NCBI GenBank assembly: GCA_018398765.1
Contig: JAHBMJ010002020.1
Location: forward strand, 17,501 to 81,500
Length of the DNA: 64,000 nt
DNA from: Chromera velia
Lineage: Eukaryota; Sar; Chromeraceae
Direction of reading: 5' to 3'
Of this stretch, positions 1 through 14,502 are shown piece by piece (position 1 is the first letter of the stretch; the number at the start of each line of letters is the position of its first letter). The notes under the pieces were generated by a model. It was not told the DNA's origin. It saw only the letters and a list, made by a program, of their open reading frames with translations, and searched no databases. Both the position numbers and the translations under genes were made by a program.

Positions 1-76
1 TGTCTATCTGTCTATCTGTCTATCTGTCTATCTGTCTATCTGTCTGTCTGTCTGTCTGTCTGTCTCTGTCTGTCTT
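1..76. repeat. TCTATCTG/TGTC microsatellite at window edge
   Basis: Tetranucleotide tract: TCTA/TCTG units, then TGTC units. It runs off the left edge of the window, so its full length is unknown. Confidence 0.95.
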
Positions 77-599
77 TTTACGCGCATGCCTCAAGTACCT
101 CACCCCTCTTTCCTTCCTGTGGGCGTATTTATTCGAAGCTTGCGGTGCGTCCCACTCTGCTCCATCCGTCGGTGTTGCTTTCCTCTTCAGTTCTCCTTAA
201 GCGCAGTCTCTCTCTTTCAACTGATGCAGAACCTTTCTCGCATATGAATTGACTTGTTGTTTCCCAGTGAGGCCGTTTCGTGTGATTGAAGTAGGGTCCT
301 TCTAGGTTCATTGAACTCGAATGGGAGGAACAATACCATTGGACACACAAACAGTCAGACAAGCGAGCAAACAGATGAATGAATAAATGAATTAATGAGA
401 GAATGAATGAAGGGAGAAATGAATAGAAGACATCCGCGTCTTCAGCAGCGTTCTCGAGGTACGCTGTCTGTCCTCTGCCCTGTTCGTCCTGCTCTTCTCC
501 TCCTCTTCTCTTTGTGTCCCTCCCGTCTTGACATCCCTCCTTGTTTCGTCTCTCTGTTGTGTCTACCCTTCTTCCATACCCCCCCTTTCACTGATTCAT
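77..599. other. Non-coding stretch downstream of the ATPase gene
   Basis: No gene recognised. It holds pyrimidine-rich DNA and GAATGA-type short repeats near 380-420, and probably includes the 3' untranslated region and terminator of the minus-strand ATPase gene that stops at 600. No convincing polyadenylation signal was picked out. Confidence 0.5.
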
Positions 600-2168
600 T
601 CACTTCGCCGCCCTTATCGCCTCTGCCTCGTCCTGCGCGTCCAGGTCATCAAGTCTGTCTCTGGCCTCCGCCATGTTGCCGATGTCTGTCGTCCTGCAGA
701 AGGGCGCAACCTCTCCGCGGGCTGCCAGACGCGCAAGGACGACCTTGTCGTCCATCGCCCTCTCGTGCTCTTTTCGGAAGAGGCCCTGCATGAACACCGA
801 CCAGATGACTAAATAAAAAGTTAATGCTGATGCAAACACGAAAAACGGCAATACAGTGTGAACAGAACCGATAGAACAGGCGCCCGCTCTTTTGGAAAAG
901 GAAGCAGAGAACGCAACCTCTCAGAACTCGAAATTGATCTGAACAGTCGCTTTACGCCTTTTTCCCATCACTGTCAGTATGAATAAATTGCTTTTGCGTG
1001 GCTGGTAAGTTGCTCAACTGTTCTGAAGGTCTGGCTGGACGCATCATTCGGTTCTTGATTCCATATTTTCACAAGCGCTGCTGACGATCTCCACCAGCCA
1101 ACGTGACCCTCCGAGAGATTGAATGGGAAGAGTTGTGTGTGGAACGCCGACCTTGAAGAATTCCAAAGAGGCTGCGAAGACTATGGCGAGACCAACGGCG
1201 ATGAAAAAATTCCACAAGTCCAGAGGGGCAAACCCCAGAGGATTCGGGGCTCCCAGAATCTTGGCAGTCGGTGGAAGGTAAACGAAGATGAGCAGAAGGC
1301 CCACCATCGGGACCCAAGCCATGGGGAAGAGCTGCGTTCATTTGTTTTCATCTTCACGCGTGAAATGGGACCAAGAAATGTGTATCGAAGTCAACGTAAG
1401 ATGTCGCATTTTTTCGAAGGAGGGAGCATCACGGCGAAAGGGAGAAAGTAGGGAATCAAGGAAGGAAGGAAGGAAGGAAGGAAGGAAAGAGGAAAAAAGG
1501 CAGAGAAGATGCCTGACGCAGCAGTCACCTGAATCGTTAATCACGGAGCTTTATCTTGTGGATATCAACAGCGAGGACACGACACCATCAGACAAACTTA
1601 CTCACTCACTCACTCACTGACTGACTCTGTTCTCCATGACTGCGTCCCATGAGTACTTGTATTTTGAGATCCCAAACAAAAGGAAGATCTCCATCGTCAC
1701 CATAGTCAACAAAACCATCGAGCGCATCTTTCTTGCCCCGTATGCTGCAGCAGTCCACTGAGAGAAAAGCACTGGCTGGTCTGCATCGTGACCGCCCTCG
1801 TCATCGTCGTCCTCCTCCGCGCTCTTCTCGGCAGACGTCATCTTCCACAGACCTGCAGGTGCGAGCTGCAGACAAACACCAAAGAGAAAGAGAACGTTTT
1901 GAAAGTGGAGAATAGCAACGATGCTCGTTCTCGTGCGTGCTGATGCAATTAGGGGTGCCTTTGCAGCGAAGAAAGTGCATACAGAATTGTCTCCAAGAAT
2001 TGAGCGTTCGGTTGCTGAGGATCCACCGGCATGCGGAGCATTTGTATAGGTTTCGCTCGAAATGTAGGAAGAATCTTCGCAAAAAACATTTTCACGGTGC
2101 TCCCTCACAAACCTGTGGAAAAGCAACACAGAAACTCTCTCTCTCTCTCTCTCTCTCAAACACACACA

Positions 2169-2199
<31 letters not shown>

Positions 2200-3443
2200 G
2201 CGTACAGACATAGACAGAGGTGACAGTGACGGGAAGAAGAAAAAAGACACCGGATAAAATCGAAGACTGACCGATCCGGGTTCTCCTGCAGGAATCGCCA
2301 TCTTCTTGGCCACCATTTCTTTGAAGATGTCTTCTGCGAACTTCGTCTTGTCTTTCAGACTGGGGTCAAGCTGTGCCTCTTGGATGGTCAATTGGAGTTC
2401 CTTCATGTACTCCTTGTCCTCAAAGCAGGCTTTTGTCTCCTGTCCTGGCTTTCCGCAAGCAGTCCAGCAGAGATGGTTGTTTTCCTCTGAACTCTGTCCG
2501 CACTTCTGCAAAAGAGGGTAACTCCACGAGTCGCTGTTGAAGTCTTGGTCGAGGTAGATCCAGGGCCCGCTCTCCTTCTCGAAGTAGTTTCCCCAGTCGC
2601 CTGCAAAAATTAAGGCAAACAAATATCCAAACAAACAAATTGGGATTTGTGAGTCAGGCATGCCTAAGGAGGTTCAAGTTCAACGAGATCAACAGCAGTA
2701 TCGGGGCCTTCAATCAACCACAAGACAAAAGAGTGATGAAGACAGAACGTTAGCAGGTAGGCCGATCTGCGGGGAGCCAGGCAGGCAGGCAGGCAGGAGG
2801 GCAGGAGGGCAGGAGGGCAGGAGGGCAGGAGGGCAGGAGGGCAGGAGGGCAGGAGGGCAGGAGGGCAGGAGGGCAGGTGAGAGAGAGGAAGAGGCCACCC
2901 GACATGCCCAAGCAGCAGGCTGGATGACTAGCAAGAAATGATGATCGACTGACTGACCTGTCATGTAGTCAATCAGATCCAAGGGGGGTTCCTGCAAGAG
3001 CATTAAAAGACACAGACAAGACGCAAGGTTGGATCGGTCAAAAATGTCTGTCCCTGTGACTGCGATATTGAATTCCCTCTCAATCCAATGAAAGCCAGGG
3101 TGCGAAATTGCCTTCTTCAATTTGGCTGTCTGGTCTGACTGACAGACTTCATGAAAGGAAGGAGAAGTTCCGAAAGTTTTTACTTCTTTTTTTCTGGACT
3201 GACTCTGTTGCTCAATTTGAGTTTCAGCTTTCTCCTGTCCAACTCGTGGCCGTTGAACTTGGCCCTCGCCATTGTTGCGGAGCTCTCATCAGTGAACTCG
3301 ACAACTCCTTCTGAGAAAGGAAGAGGAAAGGGGAGGAGAGGAGAGGAGAGCAGAGGGATGTGGACAGGAATGGTCTTGTTTACAGGATATACTATGAAAT
3401 GCCAGCCCTTCTGTGCATTTGTTGAAGTCTGAAAGAGCACACA

Positions 3444-3493
<50 letters not shown>

Positions 3494-5242
3494 GACAAAA
3501 ATTATCCCCAAGAGGCTTCTCGGCCGATTACCTATCAAAACTTTTGTTGACTGACCCGAAAGGCCTCGCGCGACTTTTGCCTTCACAAATCCAGGCTCGT
3601 TGACAAAGAGCCGTGTCAAGGAGTTGGTCGTCGTTCGCACTGAGAGATGAGTCGCCACAAGCGTCACAGGTGTGGGGCGACCGTATTGCTGGTACAGCTG
3701 CAGTCAGGACCAATAAATGCGGGAATCCGTAAAAAAAACAACGAATGAACAGAAAATTGCCAGCGCAGCACCTCATGTTCGTATTTCTCTTTATTCGGAC
3801 ACCAAACGACCCTCTTCTTCTCCCATTTTCTCTTCATTTTCCTTCCTGCATTGGGGTGGTGGGACGGCAGGCCTGCTTTCCGATCGATCTGTCAAAGTCA
3901 CAAACTGCTTACGGAGCTGATGGAGTAAGTGCTTTTCATGTCGCCTGCTTTTTGTCTGGGCGATGAAAGATCTGTCAGCCGCCTTCGGACCATCGATTTG
4001 TCAGTTTGAGGAAAAGAAAATATGTTTATTTTGCAAAATAGCTTTGCTTCATGACTCACCGTCGGGGTTGTTGACCAGAACACAGATCTGACGAAGACTT
4101 CACAGAACAGGGGGCTCCTGTCCTCAAAGAACTTCCCGCTCTCGTCCTCCCGACCCGCTTTGAAGCAGACGTAGTTCGCGTGGTCGTCCTCCATCCAGAC
4201 GTCGATGTCCTCTGTCCCCGTCATCTTGTCACGGTAGATTGTCCCGGTGAACGTGCGAGATCCAATCAGCTGAGCAAATGGAGGGGCAAAGACACACTTA
4301 TCCACATAATTACTCACACGCACTCAGACGCACGGCCGTCCACAGAGAACGAAGAGAGGGCAGGGAAAAGAAAAGGACAAAGCGCAGAAGTCTTGCAGTG
4401 GTTCTAATTCTGCATGCAGACAGACCGAATCAGAGGAGTTCCTTTCGCAACCTACACAGCAAGTTCAGCAGATGATTCTTGAATCGGTGGTGGCAAACCC
4501 AAGATGATCCCTCTTCATCTCTCTCAGTTAGTATGGCACTGATAAGGTAGGACTTTCTATGCTAACCTGTGAGGCGAGCATGCAGGCAGAGTAGGTGATG
4601 AAGGAGAGCCCGAAGATGTAAATCCACTGGAACTTTCCAATCTGCACACACACACACACACACACACACAATAATGTCTTTTCTCCTCTTTGCGTGCATG
4701 TGGTAGGTTTTCTAAAGCCCTCCCCAATCCCAATAGGCTCAACAGCGCACACTCAGAGAAGCGCAAACATGACACACAGAGTGAAGGTCCTCGCGCATGA
4801 CTTCGGCACCCTTGTCTGGATTGTCTCATGCCGAGCTGGACCGCATACAAAATAAGGAAGAAGACAAAGGACTGACCAGGGGCTTCTTTCTGTCTCTGGG
4901 GGGCTGTTGCATGTTCGTTGGCTCGGCAGGCTCAGTGACCATGCACCAGGGGTAGAAATCGTGAGACACGACGTTGGCATAGAAGAGCTGGGCCTCCTCG
5001 AGAGGGACTGCAACCAACAGAAGAAAAGAGAAGCCAATAGAGTATAAAGACGAGTGGACTTGTTTGAGGAAGAAAGGCAATGATTTGTTTCCCACAGCTG
5101 CACATGAACAGACAAAAAAAGTGTTCACAGGTTCCCTAGGCAGGTACAAACTCCGGGCAGCCAAAAGAAAGCACTTCCGAGAATTTCACGTACGTTTTCA
5201 CGCACGCAAGTGTATATCAAGTGTCGGCATCTGCAGAACTCA

Positions 5243-5288
<46 letters not shown>

Positions 5289-8200
5289 TACACACACACA
5301 CACACATACACACACACACACATACACACACACACACTCACACACACACACACACACACACGAACACACGAGATAACACCCGCGCCTCTCTCTGATGGTT
5401 CTCTTCATGCACACACAGGTCTCAGTACAGTTCAATCGACCCACCAGCAAGTCCACAAATCATGGCAATCATGATGACGATGACCTCGAAAAGGTTCACG
5501 CACATCAAGTAGAGGACCAATTTCTGAATGTTGTTGAAAATACGACGGCCCTCTTCGACAGCCGCCACAATCGTCGCAAAGTTATCGTCGAGGAGGACGA
5601 TGTCGGCTGCGGCCTTGGTGACGTCAGTTCCCGTGATTCCCATTGCGACTCCGATATCTGCCGTCTTCAATGCGCCCGCGTCGTTGACGCCATCTCCTGT
5701 CATCGCAGGTACGTGTCCCTGTCTCTGCAAAGATTCGACGATCAGGACCTTATCTGTCGGCCTGGCTCTCGACCAGACGTTGACTCTCTTGGTGAGCTCG
5801 TCCACCTCTCTCTCAGTCTTGTCGACTCCAGATTCATCCTGGAGGGCCGCGCAGATGGAGGCGCGCTTGGCGGGATCCTCAGAGTAACGAAGAATGCCGA
5901 GCTCTCTTGCGATGGCACAGGCTGTGGAAGTCTGCAGAAAGGAGGGAGGGAAAACAAGGGTGACATGTTGACACAAGTTATTGTTTCCGTGCCGTTTATC
6001 TATCGCAATTCTGAAGAATAGACCCCCTGGATCGAATGACCGGATTGTTGACTTCGCTACTTCTCACCAGTCCCTGAAAGATGCACCCGCATAGGATGGA
6101 TGTGCTGCAGGCAATCACTCCTTTCGCGTATAATTTTGCAGCAAAGTGTGTCTCTATATGCACATACGCACGAACTCGAGTATCCTGTTCCCTCAGCCAC
6201 CGACCTGATCTCCGGTGATCATGACAACCCTGACTCCTGCCTGTCTGCAGAGTCTGATTGCGTGCTTCACAGAGGACCGGGGGGGATCCATCAGGCCGAA
6301 GAGACCCAAGAGGGCAGGGGGGTCACTGCCTGAGTTCTTTGCACCCAGCGCGATGTCCACCTTTTCGTCCAGGCTCTTGGTGCTTCTCATGGTCTGCATC
6401 TCCCTCTCATTGATGAAGTTCACGGACGCGAGCAGCACTCGGAGGGCGTCCCCAGACATGGAGGCGTTGATGGCCTCGACCTGGAAGGAAAAAGGCATAG
6501 GGGTGCATGGTAAGTTTTTGTTCAATAAAAGTGACATGTTGATCATGTTGATGCAAAACAGAGACACTTGAGGCGTGAAATTGATGTGTTGATGGACGAA
6601 AGTGATAACTTCCGAATAGTGAAGCGTTCTGGTTTCTGAAGTGATCTGAAACGAATGTGAAGAGCTGAAGTGAGATCACGGAGACGGACCTGCTATACAC
6701 ACACAGAAGCACATACATGGAGGAAAGTAGCCAGCAAGGCATTCGCAAAGCACAGCATGTCTGTGGGTGATATCATTTTTCTATTTTTTTCCACTTCGTT
6801 CGCAACTGGAGGAAAAGACTTCGACAAAAAAAAACAATCGACGCCAAAACGCATCGAACTCCTTCCTTCGAGTTGATGTCTGGAAGCTCCTCCTTCCTCT
6901 ACCATACAGATTGACTGACCCCTGCAACCTCTTCCTCTGTCATCGCATCCTTGGAGACCTTCAGCTTCCCGTTGTCCCACTCGAGGTTTCGAGTCACGTA
7001 GGGCAGCAGCTTATCGGGAGCACCCTTCACGACAGCCACGTATGCGCATCCCTTAGGAGCCTGGATGCCCTCAAACATGCCGTCCTCTGGCAGTCTGTGC
7101 ACCGTGGCTGCGAGCTTGCGGGCAGAGGAGAAGGGGATCTCTGCCTCGATCACGCGGGTGTATTTGCTGAAGGGCTCCGTGCCCGTGATCTGGGCCTTGC
7201 GGGCAGCCACGACCAGGGCGGCCTCGGACATGTTCCCTGCACAGATGGCGTGATACAACAGAGAGAGGGAGAAAAGAAATCAGGATAGATGTAGACAACG
7301 AAGACGATACGGAGACTTCTCTCAGGGAGCTTTGCCTTTCCCGCTAATTCTTTTCTCTACCAGTAAATAGATACACACAGACACAGGCCGACAAAAAGAG
7401 GCAAGCACTGACCGACCGACGGACCGACCGTTGATGACCCAGTATCCGTTGTCATCTCTCTCGAGGGTTGTGCCGTAGCAGTTCAGGTAGAGTGCCATGA
7501 GAGTGGACTGGATCAGACAGGCTCTAGGGTCTGTCGAGGCCTTCTTCTGGTCTCCGAGATCCTGCATGTGAGTCAGGCAGTAGGGGGAGGAGGGGAGCCG
7601 GGGAAAAGAGAGGCGGAGAGCGTCGGAACAACACACAAACAATCTCTTTCCCTTTTTCTTTCCTTTCCGGGATACTCCCGTGTGGTGCACGCACAGAACA
7701 ACGAGAAAGACGGAAAAGGGCTGAAGGGAGAGGGAACCACACCGAATCTTGATTTAAAAAACGCCAGTTGTGAAACAAAAGGACATTACGAAGTTGCTAC
7801 ATTGATGATCTATGCTCTATAGGTATTCTGACGGACCGTGAGGATGGGAGAGAATACGTTTTCTCCGTTGTCTGCCATGCTCTGGATGGCTGTCTTCTTA
7901 GAGTCGTCCAGCTCGTCTTCGTTGAAAATTCCGCCCACAGGATTGAAGCCCTTCTGGGGCCAGAAGGTGAGTGCCGTGGTTCCACCAGGGACACGAGCAA
8001 CGCCTCCAAAGCGGATTGCAGTCATCTTTCCCTCAGTCAGGGTGCCTGCATAGAAAAAACAATCGCACTAGTTGGCTCACTGACCTAGCTGCAGGTACAG
8101 TCGCGTGCTCAACTTGTGTGCATACGAGAAACCGTTTTCTCAAGAGAACGTCACACTGGGTGTCAGAAATCACGGCACAGAGAGTCGACCGTGCTAAAGG

Positions 8201-11200
8201 AATCACCGCAGTAGAGCATGACACACTTACATCACAAGTGAACTGCCCAGAAGATCGCAGACGAGCACTTTTCATGAAAGCGGCGAGGCCAGATCACCCT
8301 TCTAGATTCATCAGTCGACCCACCAGTCTTGTCTGAGCAGATAACGGTGCAGCTCCCGAGAGTGTCGATGGCGGCAAGCTTCGTTGTCGCCGCTTTGTGT
8401 TGTGCCATTTGGGAACATCCCACAACCTGAGGAAGTGAATGCAAGAAGATATTCGAGTGATCAGTGCAACAACAAGAAAGAGAAGTTGCTGCTCTTCGAA
8501 TTGTCCTTGTTGGAAAAAAACTACATTCGGGTCCGTATTCACATTCTGAGAAGGAGAATCAGATTCTCTCTGAAGCACAAAGGAGAGGAGCGGTCGAGAA
8601 GGCAAAGGACTACCCACCAAGGTGAACATGACGGCAGGCTGTAGCGTCTCCGGGATTGCCCCCACGGCGTTGAAGATCGAGCGCATGATTGACTTGGTGA
8701 GGAAGCAGGTCGTGTCGTCCTTCCGGCAGGGATCAGCGGGATCGTTGACCTGCAGACAGAATTATCATATTGATGCGCGATCATTCAGAACACAATGAAC
8801 ATGCCAGTGATATACAGACAGCAAGAGGCTCTCGCAAATCAATGAAAGCATCTGGTTCCCGACACGCTTGTTCTTCAAAGGGTTCCACGGGATGGTTTGA
8901 AGGGACGTCAACGACGCAAATGGGTGCTCCTCCTTCTCATCAAGGATCTGCTTTTGCCTATCCTTTCCCTCCATAGAAGAGCTTCATTTGAGCCGCACAA
9001 TCTTTTTCCTTAATAGGGAGTTCCTCGCTGACATTTCGTCGAATGGCAACAGACAAACGTGTGTTTACGCATGAAACACGAGCAAACATCTGTTTTTTTT
9101 AAAGGACTCTTCCGACACTTTTTCACAGGTTTCCCACGAACTGCCGACCTACCCACCCTGTTGAAGAAAGAGACCAAGAAGATGCCAGTGACAAGCACGA
9201 TACAGAGGATGGTGATCAGACCCCCAATCTTGTTCATGGTCTTCTGCACGGGGGTCAGGCCGACTTCCTCCGCGTTCAACTTTGTGGCGATCAGTCCAAC
9301 CTGACAGAAGGGAGACCAGAGATGAGGCGTATATGTGCTCACCTTAGGGACAATGTAGTCAGAATGTCCTCGCTGATTTTTCATCAAATACAAACATCAC
9401 TGGAATGACTTGAAGGTTTGCGCACGCTGCTTTGATCTGATAGACGAAACCAAGGCAGCGGCATGCATTCTCGGGAAGAAGAATATAGTTACGGATCCCT
9501 GGATAGATGAACAGGAGAGGAGACAAAGCCACACCATCCTCATCCACTCAGACCGCACGGGACATCCACCCACCCACCCGAGTCCTCCTTCCCATCTCCC
9601 TTCCGGTAATGAACAGTATCTGCATTGGACGACGCATGCAGCCTACCCTACCTGAGTCCTGATTCCCGTCTCCACCACGAGGCCTCTGCCGTTGCCGTTG
9701 ACGACTGATGTTCCTCCATAGCAGACATTGGATGGAAACGGTGCAGCAGGGTCTGTGGGAACGAGCGTCTTCACACAGTCGTGAGTCTCTCCGGTGAGGA
9801 TGACCTCGTTGACAGTCAGCTCGACGGTCTCGATCACTCTCTGAATCAATCAAATCAATCAAATCGATCCATCAAGGACATTGTGTGCAGACAGAATTAG
9901 ACAGTTTCATTTGAATGTGCAGAATGGCAATTTTTCCTTTGGACGCAGAGTCACCACTTACTTTGCTCCTCAGCTCCTTGACACAAATTCAGACGGTTCA
10001 ATCCCTCTGTGCCTTCAGTCAGAACAAAATGAAATAGAAACGCCGGAATGCATCGTGACCGACTCTCGTGTGTAACTTTTGATGATCGAAAAGCACCTCT
10101 ATGCATACACCGATTCCCTAACGTGTTGATGCCCCCGGATGCCATCACACGCGCATCCGCACTCTGCACACGTCGCACTGCAGGGTGTCACACACCCAAG
10201 CTCTCGCCCTCTTGACCTACCAGATCGGCCGGAATTGCATCTCCAGTCGAGAGAAGAACAATGTCCCCTGGCACCAGGCATCTGGCTTCAATTTCCATTT
10301 CCTGCCCGTCCCTCATGACCTTGCATGTGGGGGCGGAGAGATTCGAGACGTCTGCCATAATGGCGTTGCACTTCCACTCCATGTATGCACCCACCTGCAT
10401 GTGTATTTAGGGAGGGAGGGAGAGAAGGAATAAGTAAAACAACATCACTCACTTTGGGGTGCCTGTACAGCTGTATGGAACAGGAGATCGACAAAGTGGC
10501 CAAAGAATAGATACCACGCATGCAGATTAATCGACTTACAAGAACAGACGGCAAAAAAAGACTAGTGAAAGGAGTGACTTACAATAATGCAGATGCTCAC
10601 GATGAACAGCAGAAGGACACCACTCCCGTAGTCAGGCTCGTCACCGAATCCTGGAATGTTTCCTTGGAGCATTGCGATCACTGCCGCAGCAACCACCAGC
10701 ATGTTCAGAGCGTTGATCTGTTCCAGTAGAATCCGGTTGAACGATTTGCCCTTGGCCTTCTCGAGCTCGTTGTATCCAAGGGACTGCAGCTTCGACTCAG
10801 CAGCTGCCGAGCTAATGCCTGACTCCAGAGAGGTGTCCAGTTCAGCAGCAAGCTCTTCGAGTGGTTTCTGGAAAACAGACAGAGCAAAAGAAGACATGAA
10901 AGAGACGCACTCTGCAAGTCGAGATGAATTCAAACATAAAGAGACTCAACCCAAGACCAACTCTTGTTTTTCCGTCATTTTCATCCGATCCGAAAGCTAA
11001 GAAGAGATCGGCAGGATCACCAAGAATTTTGTGAGACATTGCGCCTGTCTAATGCGTCGATTGACTCTTGGTCTTTCCACATTGCCCTGTCGATGGCTGT
11101 CTTCCATGCTGCAGGTTTGCTCACAGAAAATGAGCAGAAGTTCTCTAGAGAGACTTAGACGCAACGAAGAGGCAGAGCTGGAAGGGGCTGAAAGGCATCC

Positions 11201-12397
11201 ACCAGACGTGTCACAACAGGGACACCACTAGCCTCATTGTCACGAATGCAGCGAACTGTCCATCGACGTGCCTCCAGCAGGAAGGGCAAAGCAAAACAAG
11301 GAAACCTGTCTTGCTTCCTCTTTCTGATTGACTGACTAACTCACCTGGGTGTTTTGCCTAGCTGCCTGGGCCTTCTGGTCGTGGGTCACTTCAGAGAGGG
11401 CCCTTTCGAATCGTGCTGGCTCGACTGCCTGGACGTACTCGATCTGGTCTCTGGGCTTCATCATTGCCAGCTGCAGGGAAAGAGAGAGAGAGACATTCAG
11501 TGAGGGCATGATATAACTGAAGGGGAAAACGGAAGGGTGTTTTGACATATTTGTGCTACAGAAAAAAATCCAACGGGGACTGTGGGGGGATTCAATTGAA
11601 AGAGAATCTTCTCTCTAGTGTGTCAGCAAGAATGAGGAGCCAGCAGTCGGGATGGTGGTCGAAGAGGATTCCAGACAGACACGCGTTCCAGACATGCACG
11701 AACGAACACATTCATTTTGCGCTCCACCTTCCATCAGAAGGAAGAAAAGTCTCATTTCTCTCTCTGTCTCGCTCGCTCTGCCTGCGTTCACTTTGGACTC
11801 ACCGACATCCTGTGCATGGATGCACGCGCGTTTCCGGCGTCGAATGAAGGACCATCCTCCTGCACGAAGAGAAAAACAGCGACAGATTAGAAGTAAAACT
11901 GTACAGCGGTTTTGGGAGTCAGTAGCAATCGGAGGCGGTAACAGAAATGACCAAAACAGTCGGTGAAAGAAGAAGAGTAATATGAACAGACAAGACGGAC
12001 AGTCAATAGAAAGGTGATGCGTCATCTGTCCGGCCGTTCATTTTTCTTCTTTCCTCGAGCCCTCTTCCCCTCCTCTACTGATTTCAGCCAATTACTGTGC
12101 TGCTGTATTTTCCGCGCATACATGCGTGCGCGTATTTAAAAATCTCCCCATCTTATCTTCTGGAACAGTCCTGTTCAGCACCAATCGCATCGATATGTGT
12201 ATATATACCATGCTTCCATCCATCCGCTTTCCCTGTATGTTTTTAGTCTGCTGGGCGCCGCTTGCTTCTTGATTCATTCTGCTTGCGCACATACGGGTGC
12301 ATATTTGGCAGACTGAGCGCCTCGGTTGCTCCTACTTTGCCTCTCCTCGCTATTTTCTCCGCCTCTCTGTTTCCGACTCTGTCACATTTGCATCCAA

Positions 12398-12491
<94 letters not shown>

Positions 12492-12859
12492 TCCGTCACC
12501 TCCAACCTCTCCTCATTCACCAGTCGCTCATTCACCTTGTCGCTCAAACGACTCAGTCGACGTACCTGACTGCCAACCTGGGCGTCACCGAAAGTGTTCA
12601 CACCCAGCATCGACCGGCGGATCTTCTTCTGTGCAGCCGTCAGCTCCAACCGGTTGGACCCTATTGAAGAAATGGACGTGCGCATCGATGAGCGGGGAGC
12701 AGCAATTGACACGCGGGTGCCTGTCTTTACAGGGACTTCAGAAGGCTCTGCTGCAGGTGCGGGGGAGGAAGAAGGAGCCTCAGATCCCTGGGCCCCTCCC
12801 CCCTCGCCCCCATTCTCGAGGAGAGGGTACTTCAGAGAGTCACCACCGTCACCCTCCAT
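600..12859 (-). CDS. Type II P-type cation-transporting ATPase (ENA/ATP4- or SERCA-like), 25 exons, about 1545 aa
   Basis: ATP-driven cation pump with ten predicted membrane helices. Exons 5' to 3': 12859-12566, 11859-11803, 11470-11345, 10867-10583, 10394-10221, 9840-9652, 9300-9157, 8749-8618, 8426-8324, 8045-7837, 7561-7429, 7236-6920, 6480-6205, 5931-5445, 5007-4877, 4641-4567, 4269-4060, 3697-3556, 3310-3204, 3138-3061 (tentative), 2991-2958, 2600-2272, 1865-1626, 1331-1152, 785-600. Seen: TGET (about residue 328) in the actuator domain, IPET in M4 (E457), phosphorylated aspartate in DKTGT (D499), KGAP (686) in the nucleotide domain, MITGDQ (808), TGDGVND (891). M5 keeps N959 and E962; M6 reads NVVSHD, where SERCA has NLVTDG. 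M9-M10 align with SERCA up to the end. M7 and M8 are separated by about 340 residues, far more than in SERCA or fungal ENA pumps. The serine-rich N-terminus has no signal peptide. Transported ion unknown; Na+ or Ca2+ are candidates. Confidence 0.9.
2136..2205. repeat. (CT)n-(CA)n compound microsatellite in ATPase intron
   Basis: CT dinucleotides followed by CA dinucleotides, within the intron between exons 2600-2272 and 1865-1626. Confidence 0.95.
2779..2877. repeat. 8-bp minisatellite (GGCAGGAG)n in ATPase intron
   Basis: About a dozen near-perfect copies of an 8-nt unit, preceded by GGCA tetranucleotides, in the intron between exons 2991-2958 and 2600-2272. It is G-rich on the plus strand and therefore C-rich in the transcript. 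Confidence 0.95.
3204..3697 (-). other. RRM-like segment inside the M7-M8 loop of the ATPase
   Basis: Exons 3697-3556 and 3310-3204 join in phase 1 and encode a 70-residue stretch (about residues 1126-1195) with the order of an RNA-recognition motif: an RNP2-like strand TLVATHLS, a helix ending SLTRLF, a strand GFVKAKV, an RNP1-like strand EGVVEF, then SSATMARAKFNGHEL and a final strand KLKLKLS. RNP1 lacks the usual aromatic positions. The surrounding loop (exons 4269-4060 and 2600-2272) holds spaced cysteines, as expected for a disulphide-bearing non-cytosolic domain. The RRM reading is pattern recognition only; a ferredoxin-like fold without RNA binding would look the same. Confidence 0.5.
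3437..3490. repeat. (CA)n-(GA)n compound microsatellite in ATPase intron
   Basis: CA then GA dinucleotides in the intron upstream (in transcript sense) of exon 3310-3204. In sense orientation it reads CT repeats then TG repeats. Confidence 0.95.
4642..4672. repeat. (TG)n tract forming the 3' splice site of ATPase exon 16
   Basis: On the sense strand TG dinucleotides run straight into TGCAG and the first base of exon 4641-4567, so the microsatellite occupies the position of the polypyrimidine tract. Confidence 0.9.
5248..5362. repeat. (CA)n microsatellite in ATPase intron
   Basis: Long, slightly interrupted CA array in the intron between exons 5931-5445 and 5007-4877. Confidence 0.95.
12400..12489. 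repeat. (CT)n-(CA)n compound microsatellite in first ATPase intron
   Basis: CT array followed directly by a CA array, about 75 nt inside the first intron of the ATPase gene. Confidence 0.95.
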
Positions 12860-14502
12860 CTCGTAGACGCTCTTTCGTTCTTGTTCTCCTTCTTCGATCG
12901 ATTGGTAGTGCCTGGCTCTTCTACTTCTGTGTTCAACTCAAAAGCGTCAAGAGAAAAAAGGCGAAGAATGTTCTGCTCTCTTGAATCAACACAGAATGAT
13001 CGCTTGCTCTGCTTGGGGCTCCAACCTTCGACAGCGAATTGGGTAATCGCCTTGACTCGATCTCTGCTCAGATCGAAAGCTATATACATATCAATCGTGT
13101 ACGTTTATCATTCCGATACACCCGCGCATGCACGCGGTCAGACATGCACAATAATTAACGATTTTTTTTTAAGGAGCCGAAATTAGCTGGTATAGCGCTC
13201 GTTTTCCCATTTCGTGCGCGGCCTTTTCATGGCGCAAAAAGTTCAGGGTAGTTCAGGGAGTAACAGATAGTGACAGGCCAAATTTAACCTATAGCATAGA
13301 CGGGGGAGAGGCGGCAACGTAGGCCCCCCGGGATGATGGAGACTGAGAGTAAAGTGAAAGACTCGGATCAACACAAAGAGAATATGTATGGGGAAAAAAG
13401 TATAAGGGGGGTTGGTCATATAAGGTATGTCGTATTTACCATATAGACAAAGACACATAAAAGTACATAGAGGCACACTTTAATAAATTAACATTTAAAA
13501 AAACGATGTTTAACCTTGGCAGACTTGGCTGCAGTTAGCTGCCTTAGCTGTACAGTGGCTGTACTTTGTTGTTATGTCAGGCCTCGGCAACCTTGCTCAC
13601 ACTTCAATGTGTTTTAACATGTTTTTTCCCTTATTCACCCCCCTTTAATATTTAGATTACAATTAATTACTATAACACGGTTATACGACATTGTTCACAT
13701 TGTTCTCTTCAAAAAAAAAAAATGTATGTTATCTGGAGTTAATTGGACTAGCAACTGGAGCAAAGCCTCAATTAATTTATGGGACAAACCAGTGAGTGAC
13801 GAAATGTGATTCACTGGCAATCTGCTTTGCACCAATTAAAACCTGCCGATAAAATGCATGGATTCTTCCTGACAGGATGAGCTGTGTTTGTTTCAAAACG
13901 ACTGCTTGTACTGGCCTTGTAGCATTAAGCTGGTTTTTTGTTTCTCTTTCCTTCTTCTCTCTCTCTCTCTCTCTCGCTCGCTCGCTCGCTCGCTCGCTCT
14001 CACACACAAACACACGCTCACTCTCTCGCTCTTCGTCAGTCTGCCAATGCTTTTCTCCATTCGTCTCTATCGAACCAAAAGTGAAGGCCTAATTGAGGCA
14101 GCACCACGGATCCATGCAGATTCACGTTCACGATAAAAAAGAGAAAGCATGAACGCATGCAAAACACATCAAAACGGGCACAAACGCATACCTGACATGT
14201 AAGAAATGAGAACATTTCACTTCCTCCACGTCTACCACTGGCGTGTAAAAAGACGGCCTGAAAAAAAGACGCGAGATGCAACGGAATTGCGCGGACATGC
14301 ATCCACTTAGTGCAGGGAGAAGCCCACTCTACCGACTATCGAAGCTTTGTGTCGGTCGATGAATTCACACAACTCGGCACTGCACTCGAAAGGCCTGCGT
14401 TGACGATAGGGCATCATAAATTCATTCCAAAAAAACACATGCATTCATGGCCTTCTTTCGAACCATCTGAAGGGTCACGTCTCTTCTCCTCTATGCACCC
14501 AC
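12860..14502. other. Non-coding stretch upstream of the ATPase gene, with small AT-rich island
   Basis: No gene recognised. The part next to 12859 should hold the 5' untranslated region and promoter of the ATPase. About 13440-13760 is AT-rich with homopolymer runs, and 13950-14010 is a CT/GCTC simple repeat. Confidence 0.5.

Follow-up and report, generated by a model that had tools for sequence, protein, structure and literature searches.

A gene for a P2-type ATPase in the genome of Chromera velia carries, in the loop between helices M7 and M8, two exons that together match the profile of an RNA-recognition motif (RRM), and the aromatic residues through which such a motif normally contacts RNA are missing from it. 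On balance, and with modest confidence, we hold that this is one gene, an ATP4-like pump paralogue into whose mRNA the RRM exons are spliced, and that the encoded RRM stands outside the cytosol and does not bind RNA. The gene lies in the window, by which we mean the whole 64,000-nucleotide stretch of DNA analysed, within contig C2013 of the 177.8-Mb assembly that we searched.

The pump gene and its RRM exons

On the minus strand of the window we joined 25 exons into a single open frame of 1525 codons, with GT-AG borders and matching phases at every join (Table 1). The frame continues without a break from M7 to M10, as a sequence-only reading of this DNA had proposed when it argued for one gene, and the order of the helices aligns to that of canonical P2 pumps, which agrees with its placement of the module between M7 and M8 of a P-type ATPase. 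Searched whole against Pfam, the protein matched E1-E2_ATPase, Cation_ATPase_C, Cation_ATPase, Hydrolase, Cation_ATPase_N and RRM_1; the pump motifs TGET, DKTGT, KGAPD and TGDGVND were all found, the first of them at a position that usually reads TGES in P-type ATPases. Introns beginning GTCAGT are frequent in the gene (7 of 24 donors), and several introns contain long CT/TG simple repeats.

Exons 19 and 20 lie exactly where that reading had put the two exons of an RRM-like module, and they are in phase with each other, with the end of exon 18 (4060) and with the start of exon 21 (2991); their product, however, is 83 residues long (1121-1203 of the spliced protein) and not 70 as had been claimed. 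The RRM-like character read from the letters was borne out by a profile search of the joined exons, which matched Pfam RRM_1 (PF00076) at 28.3 bits (E-value 1.6e-6, curated cut-off 20.7 bits) from position 6 to position 70 of its 70; the match also passed that cut-off in the whole-protein search (22.2 bits). Exon 20 without its first, split codon scored 22.4 bits and so contributes the bulk of the score, and neither exon 19 alone nor the reversed segment had any match in Pfam. We dismiss a chance likeness to the RRM on the strength of this E-value and of the matchless reversed sequence. At E-values up to 1 the segment matched 17 PDB sequences, a nucleolin chain first among them (E 6.5e-5) and SR proteins, U1A and RBM19 further down, as well as unrelated chains of ClpC and FlgE; no P-type ATPase, PfATP4 included, was among the 17.

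P1B copper ATPases carry HMA metal-binding domains, which are small alpha-beta domains of ferredoxin-like topology located at the N terminus, in the cytosol. The window RRM resembles them in being a small alpha-beta, ferredoxin-like domain joined to a P-type ATPase, whereas HMA domains are N-terminal and cytosolic. We rejected an HMA domain (PF00403) as the identity of the segment, since Pfam gave no such match at E-values up to 1, nor up to 10 with a longer exon 19. This longer exon would end at an alternative in-frame donor, GTAATC (3531-3526), 24 bases into intron 19, and would insert GQSTKVLI in the beta2-beta3 loop; the RRM_1 scores of the longer and shorter forms (28.8 and 28.3 bits) are indistinguishable, and exon 19 may end at either donor. 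A fusion of an RNA recognition motif with a P-type ATPase was not found by title among the literature matches listed, and a literature search for extracellular non-canonical RRMs found none.

Table 1. Position of the pump gene, its M6 motif and the exons of the M7-M8 region in the window
Feature	Position	Strand	Basis or remark
ATP4-like P2-type ATPase gene	600..12859	-	25 exons, 1525 aa; PDB and Pfam matches
M6 motif NVVSHD (residues 993-998), His997 in the Asp position	4958..4975	-	alignments
Exon 17, helix M7	4567..4641	-	aligns to the M7 region of PfATP4
Exon 18, start of M7-M8 loop with two cysteines, phase 0 out	4060..4269	-	gene model
Exon 19, first half of RRM (beta1-alpha1-beta2), phase 0 in, phase 1 out	3556..3697	-	donor GTCAGT
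Exon 20, second half of RRM (beta3-alpha2-beta4), phase 1 in, phase 0 out	3204..3310	-	gene model, RRM_1
Exon 21, further loop (EPPLDLIDYMTG)	2958..2991	-	gene model
Exon 22, further loop, four cysteines	2272..2600	-	gene model
Exon 23, acidic end of loop and M8	1626..1865	-	gene model

For an RRM in such a place the sequence-only reading had offered three options, namely recruitment as an extracytosolic module, an unusual topology or two interleaved genes. Of these the first fits best, while the last fares poorly: a second gene interleaved with or nested in the pump, or a chimaeric assembly, is in our view very improbable. Retention of intron 20 would let the RRM frame end in VSPEKKK followed by a stop, as a separate gene might have it; yet exon 19 contains no in-frame ATG and has an in-frame TGA directly upstream (3706-3704), which makes interleaved genes unlikely, and on these grounds we rejected an independent nested RRM gene. 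The pump, moreover, runs on both sides of the RRM in one frame and on one contig, and positions 1-13000 contain no N.

Relatives of the pump and its altered ion site

Among the best 60 of 127 PDB matches, PfATP4 (PDB 9n10), the ATP4-type Na+ pump of Plasmodium, came first with 560 bits, in an alignment that spans the N-terminal domain to M7, followed by SERCA (333 bits), a type 2C Ca2+ pump (328 bits) and Na,K-ATPase (293 bits), so that within these matches PfATP4 is the closest of the solved P-type ATPases. The C-terminal part of the protein, searched against the PDB without its RRM, retrieved no P-type ATPase and had a viral capsid protein as its sole match (E 0.5). PfATP4 and the window pump have DKTGT, KGAPD, TGDGVND and a large M7-M8 loop in common; the loop is about 130 aa long in PfATP4, counted by eye on the alignment, as against 315 aa, RRM included, in the window pump. 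The two also differ in M4 and M6. In M4, PfATP4 has IPEGL where the window pump has IPETL (8656-8642, minus strand), and the Asp in M6, which is kept in SERCA, in PfATP4 and in all three paralogues whose alignments cross M6 (L030, L033, L035), is His997 in the window pump. We would class the protein as an ATP4-like paralogue and nothing narrower; with M4 and M6 altered, it may transport a different ion or function poorly.

One of these paralogues (L030, G000:C2554:11000-20900) is a closer relative of PfATP4, with 419 bits and a single 390-residue stretch that includes M7-M10. A 160-residue stretch reaching from the P domain to M6 is 55 percent identical in this paralogue and the window pump, and the paralogue retains the M6 Asp that the window pump has exchanged for His997. 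Its M7-M8 loop, with exons joined by eye, is about 100 aa long and bears cysteines, and no RRM was seen in it; PfATP4, too, is unmatched by the RRM, and we thus rejected the idea that an RRM is a general feature of the ATP4 loop. The M8-M10 regions of the two Chromera pumps are alike (z 6.8, none of 1000 shuffles as good). Exon 18 has only a weak likeness to the paralogue's loop (z 2.0, 45 of 1000 shuffles equal or better), and the part of the loop 3' of the RRM aligned with it no better than shuffles did (341 of 1000 as good). A genome search with the loop minus its RRM found no second copy and one weak match (E 0.91). Of the two pumps the window pump is the divergent one, with its altered M4 and M6. 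Such divergence fits a neofunctionalised ATP4-like paralogue that tolerated an inserted domain or profited from it; it would also fit a pump that is losing its function.

Origin of the RRM and the case for its inclusion

When the genome was searched in six frames with the RRM as query, one match at E-values up to 1 was listed besides the RRM itself, on contig C1670 (E 0.066). The gene there (L034) is Mrd1/RBM19-like and seems to carry two RRMs at its end; the first of this pair, its penultimate RRM, has an RBM19 chain (2cpf) as top PDB match (E 1.4e-14). It shares 30 of 74 aligned residues with the window RRM, and its local alignment to the latter scored 89 (z 12.8 against shuffles), whereas none of 31 further RRM stretches exceeded 56 (z 7.4). 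These 31 were the 30 best RRM_1 places of the genome and one more from the C1670 gene, a sample in which intron-split RRMs are under-represented; among the 32 stretches so compared the penultimate Mrd1/RBM19-like RRM is the nearest relative of the window RRM. The two have a PTPV lead-in in common, and in both a phase-1 intron lies between beta2 and beta3 and cuts a Glu codon. Introns of this kind may be common, given that 12 of 104 RRM places start or end near the beta2-beta3 loop by our own count (150 of 208 candidates scored), and the shared intron is therefore weak evidence of origin. The C1670 gene has multiple RRMs and, in the stretch read, no pump domains.

At the DNA level, comparison with the Mrd1-like exons revealed no coding likeness; what aligned was simple repeats and short matches of the kind that chance gives. 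Four families of direct repeats and three inverted pairs, 14-17 bases long, surround the RRM exons, and we could read no target duplication or element ends in them; intron 21 contains a tandem repeat with a period of 8 bases (GCAGGAGG, window positions 2745-2888). By eye, the list of RRM places (104 places, 150 of 208 candidates scored) and that of pump places (40 places) had no contig in common, a comparison that says little because the window gene, its RRM being split, is itself absent from the former.

In an RRM, three positions of the RNP motifs are normally aromatic and stack on RNA. The C1670 relative keeps these residues (RNP2 LFVKNL, RNP1 YGFVEF) together with a long charged loop, and an aromatic RNP1-like pattern, as captured by a loose expression, occurs in 27 of the 32 compared stretches. 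The window RRM, by contrast, reads LVATHL and EGVVEF in the translation and is altered at all three positions. With the aromatic residues gone, RNA binding is unlikely; the sequence suggests an RRM that has likely kept its fold and lost its RNA binding. The sequence-only reading had noted neither this loss nor the two phase-0 introns that flank the exon pair, nor the Mrd1/RBM19-like RRM as the nearest one found in the genome; the ATP4-like nature of the pump, its altered M6 residue and the closer PfATP4 relative without an RRM had likewise escaped it.

The RRM exon pair also bears a coding signal. Its codon score is positive in frame (about 0.096-0.099) and negative in the remaining frames, and it exceeds every one of the 44 overlapping intron windows that formed the background (maximum -0.109). 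At the same time it is the lowest among the gene's 17 equal coding windows, the others scoring 0.184 to 0.610, and its synonymous part is the lowest of the 17 as well (0.023, the next being 0.039). In a neutral simulation, no stop arose in 196 of 1000 copies that had drifted to 60 percent identity, or in 77 of 1000 that had drifted to 40 percent; the simulation modelled substitutions and no indels and thus overstates the survival of an open frame. Stop-free neutral copies being this common, the open frame of 83 codons is weak proof of selection, and the lowest codon score combined with a non-negligible neutral open frame means that a relic and an optional cassette must both be taken seriously.

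By a relic we mean a duplicated fragment of an RRM gene that lies in a pump intron, is always removed with that intron (1068 bases, 4059-2992) and is absent from the protein. The low codon score, the vanished RNP residues and the neutral survival of the frame would all be expected of such a fragment, but its splice borders are usable and its phases match, its in-frame codon score stands above all the intron windows, RRM_1 is above its cut-off across the exon join and the simulated survival is too generous; we regard it as distinctly unlikely. As to the optional cassette, the introns before exon 19 and after exon 20 are both in phase 0 and the one between the two exons is in phase 1. Skipping both exons would consequently keep the frame and yield 1442 aa plus a stop, whereas skipping either one would break it, and retention of intron 18, 19 or 20 would lead to a stop. 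The exons might therefore be spliced together alternatively, giving pumps of 1525 and 1442 aa with the RRM as a regulated add-on. The splice borders are nonetheless ordinary, GTCAGT being the commonest donor and the acceptors ending in TGCAG and CTCAG, so that nothing marks the RRM exons as weak. Such a cassette is unlikely, if a serious contender, and we continue to favour regular inclusion of the RRM in the pump.

Sidedness of the loop and possible role

In P2 pumps the M7-M8 loop faces away from the cytosol, and in the Na,K-ATPase this loop of the alpha subunit contacts the beta subunit. The corresponding loop of the window pump (residues 1054-1368, 315 aa) is predicted from the alignments to be extracytosolic as well. 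It contains six cysteines, none of them within the RRM, and no N-glycosylation sequon. No stretch between M7 and M8 was hydrophobic enough to pass the threshold of a simple hydropathy scan; the scan did not resolve M6 as a peak of its own and gave a peak at 926-944 that is probably false, and the count of ten helices hence rests on the alignments. Were the topology unusual and the loop cytosolic, the RRM could bind RNA or protein there, and the missing sequon and the cysteine-free RRM would suit that location. We give this arrangement very little credence, however, since M8-M10 align to the ATP4 relative, the loop has no additional hydrophobic segment, six cysteines lie in the rest of it and the RNA-binding residues are gone.

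For the extracytosolic RRM we have the following course of events in mind, each step of it conditional. A two-exon RRM unit, nearest to the penultimate RRM of the Mrd1/RBM19 type, would have come to be flanked by phase-0 introns in the gene of an ATP4-like P2 pump, and its exons would be spliced into the pump mRNA. The folded RRM would then stand outside the cytosol in an enlarged, cysteine-bearing M7-M8 loop and, having lost its RNP aromatics, would not bind RNA. Most likely it would be a rigid module with a structural or protein-binding function, in the spot at which the alpha subunit of the Na,K-ATPase meets beta; docking or structural support is the simplest role to conjecture for it. We put forward only tentatively, at somewhat under even confidence, that exon shuffling brought a nucleolar-type RRM into the extracytosolic loop of a pump paralogue with altered ion chemistry, where it was kept as a receptor or subunit-docking domain that does not bind RNA, perhaps as a spliced-in option.

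Should transcripts bear out this gene model, an intracellular RNA-binding fold would clearly have been put to new use on the far side of a membrane, and a single genome would contain its probable donor, the exons that were shuffled and an RRM-free sister pump. One paper (PMC12152296) assigns ATP4-type pumps to apicomplexan parasites only; here the genome in which they occur is perhaps that of a free-living relative, and it also holds a second, divergent ATP4-type member with a changed residue at the M6 ion site.
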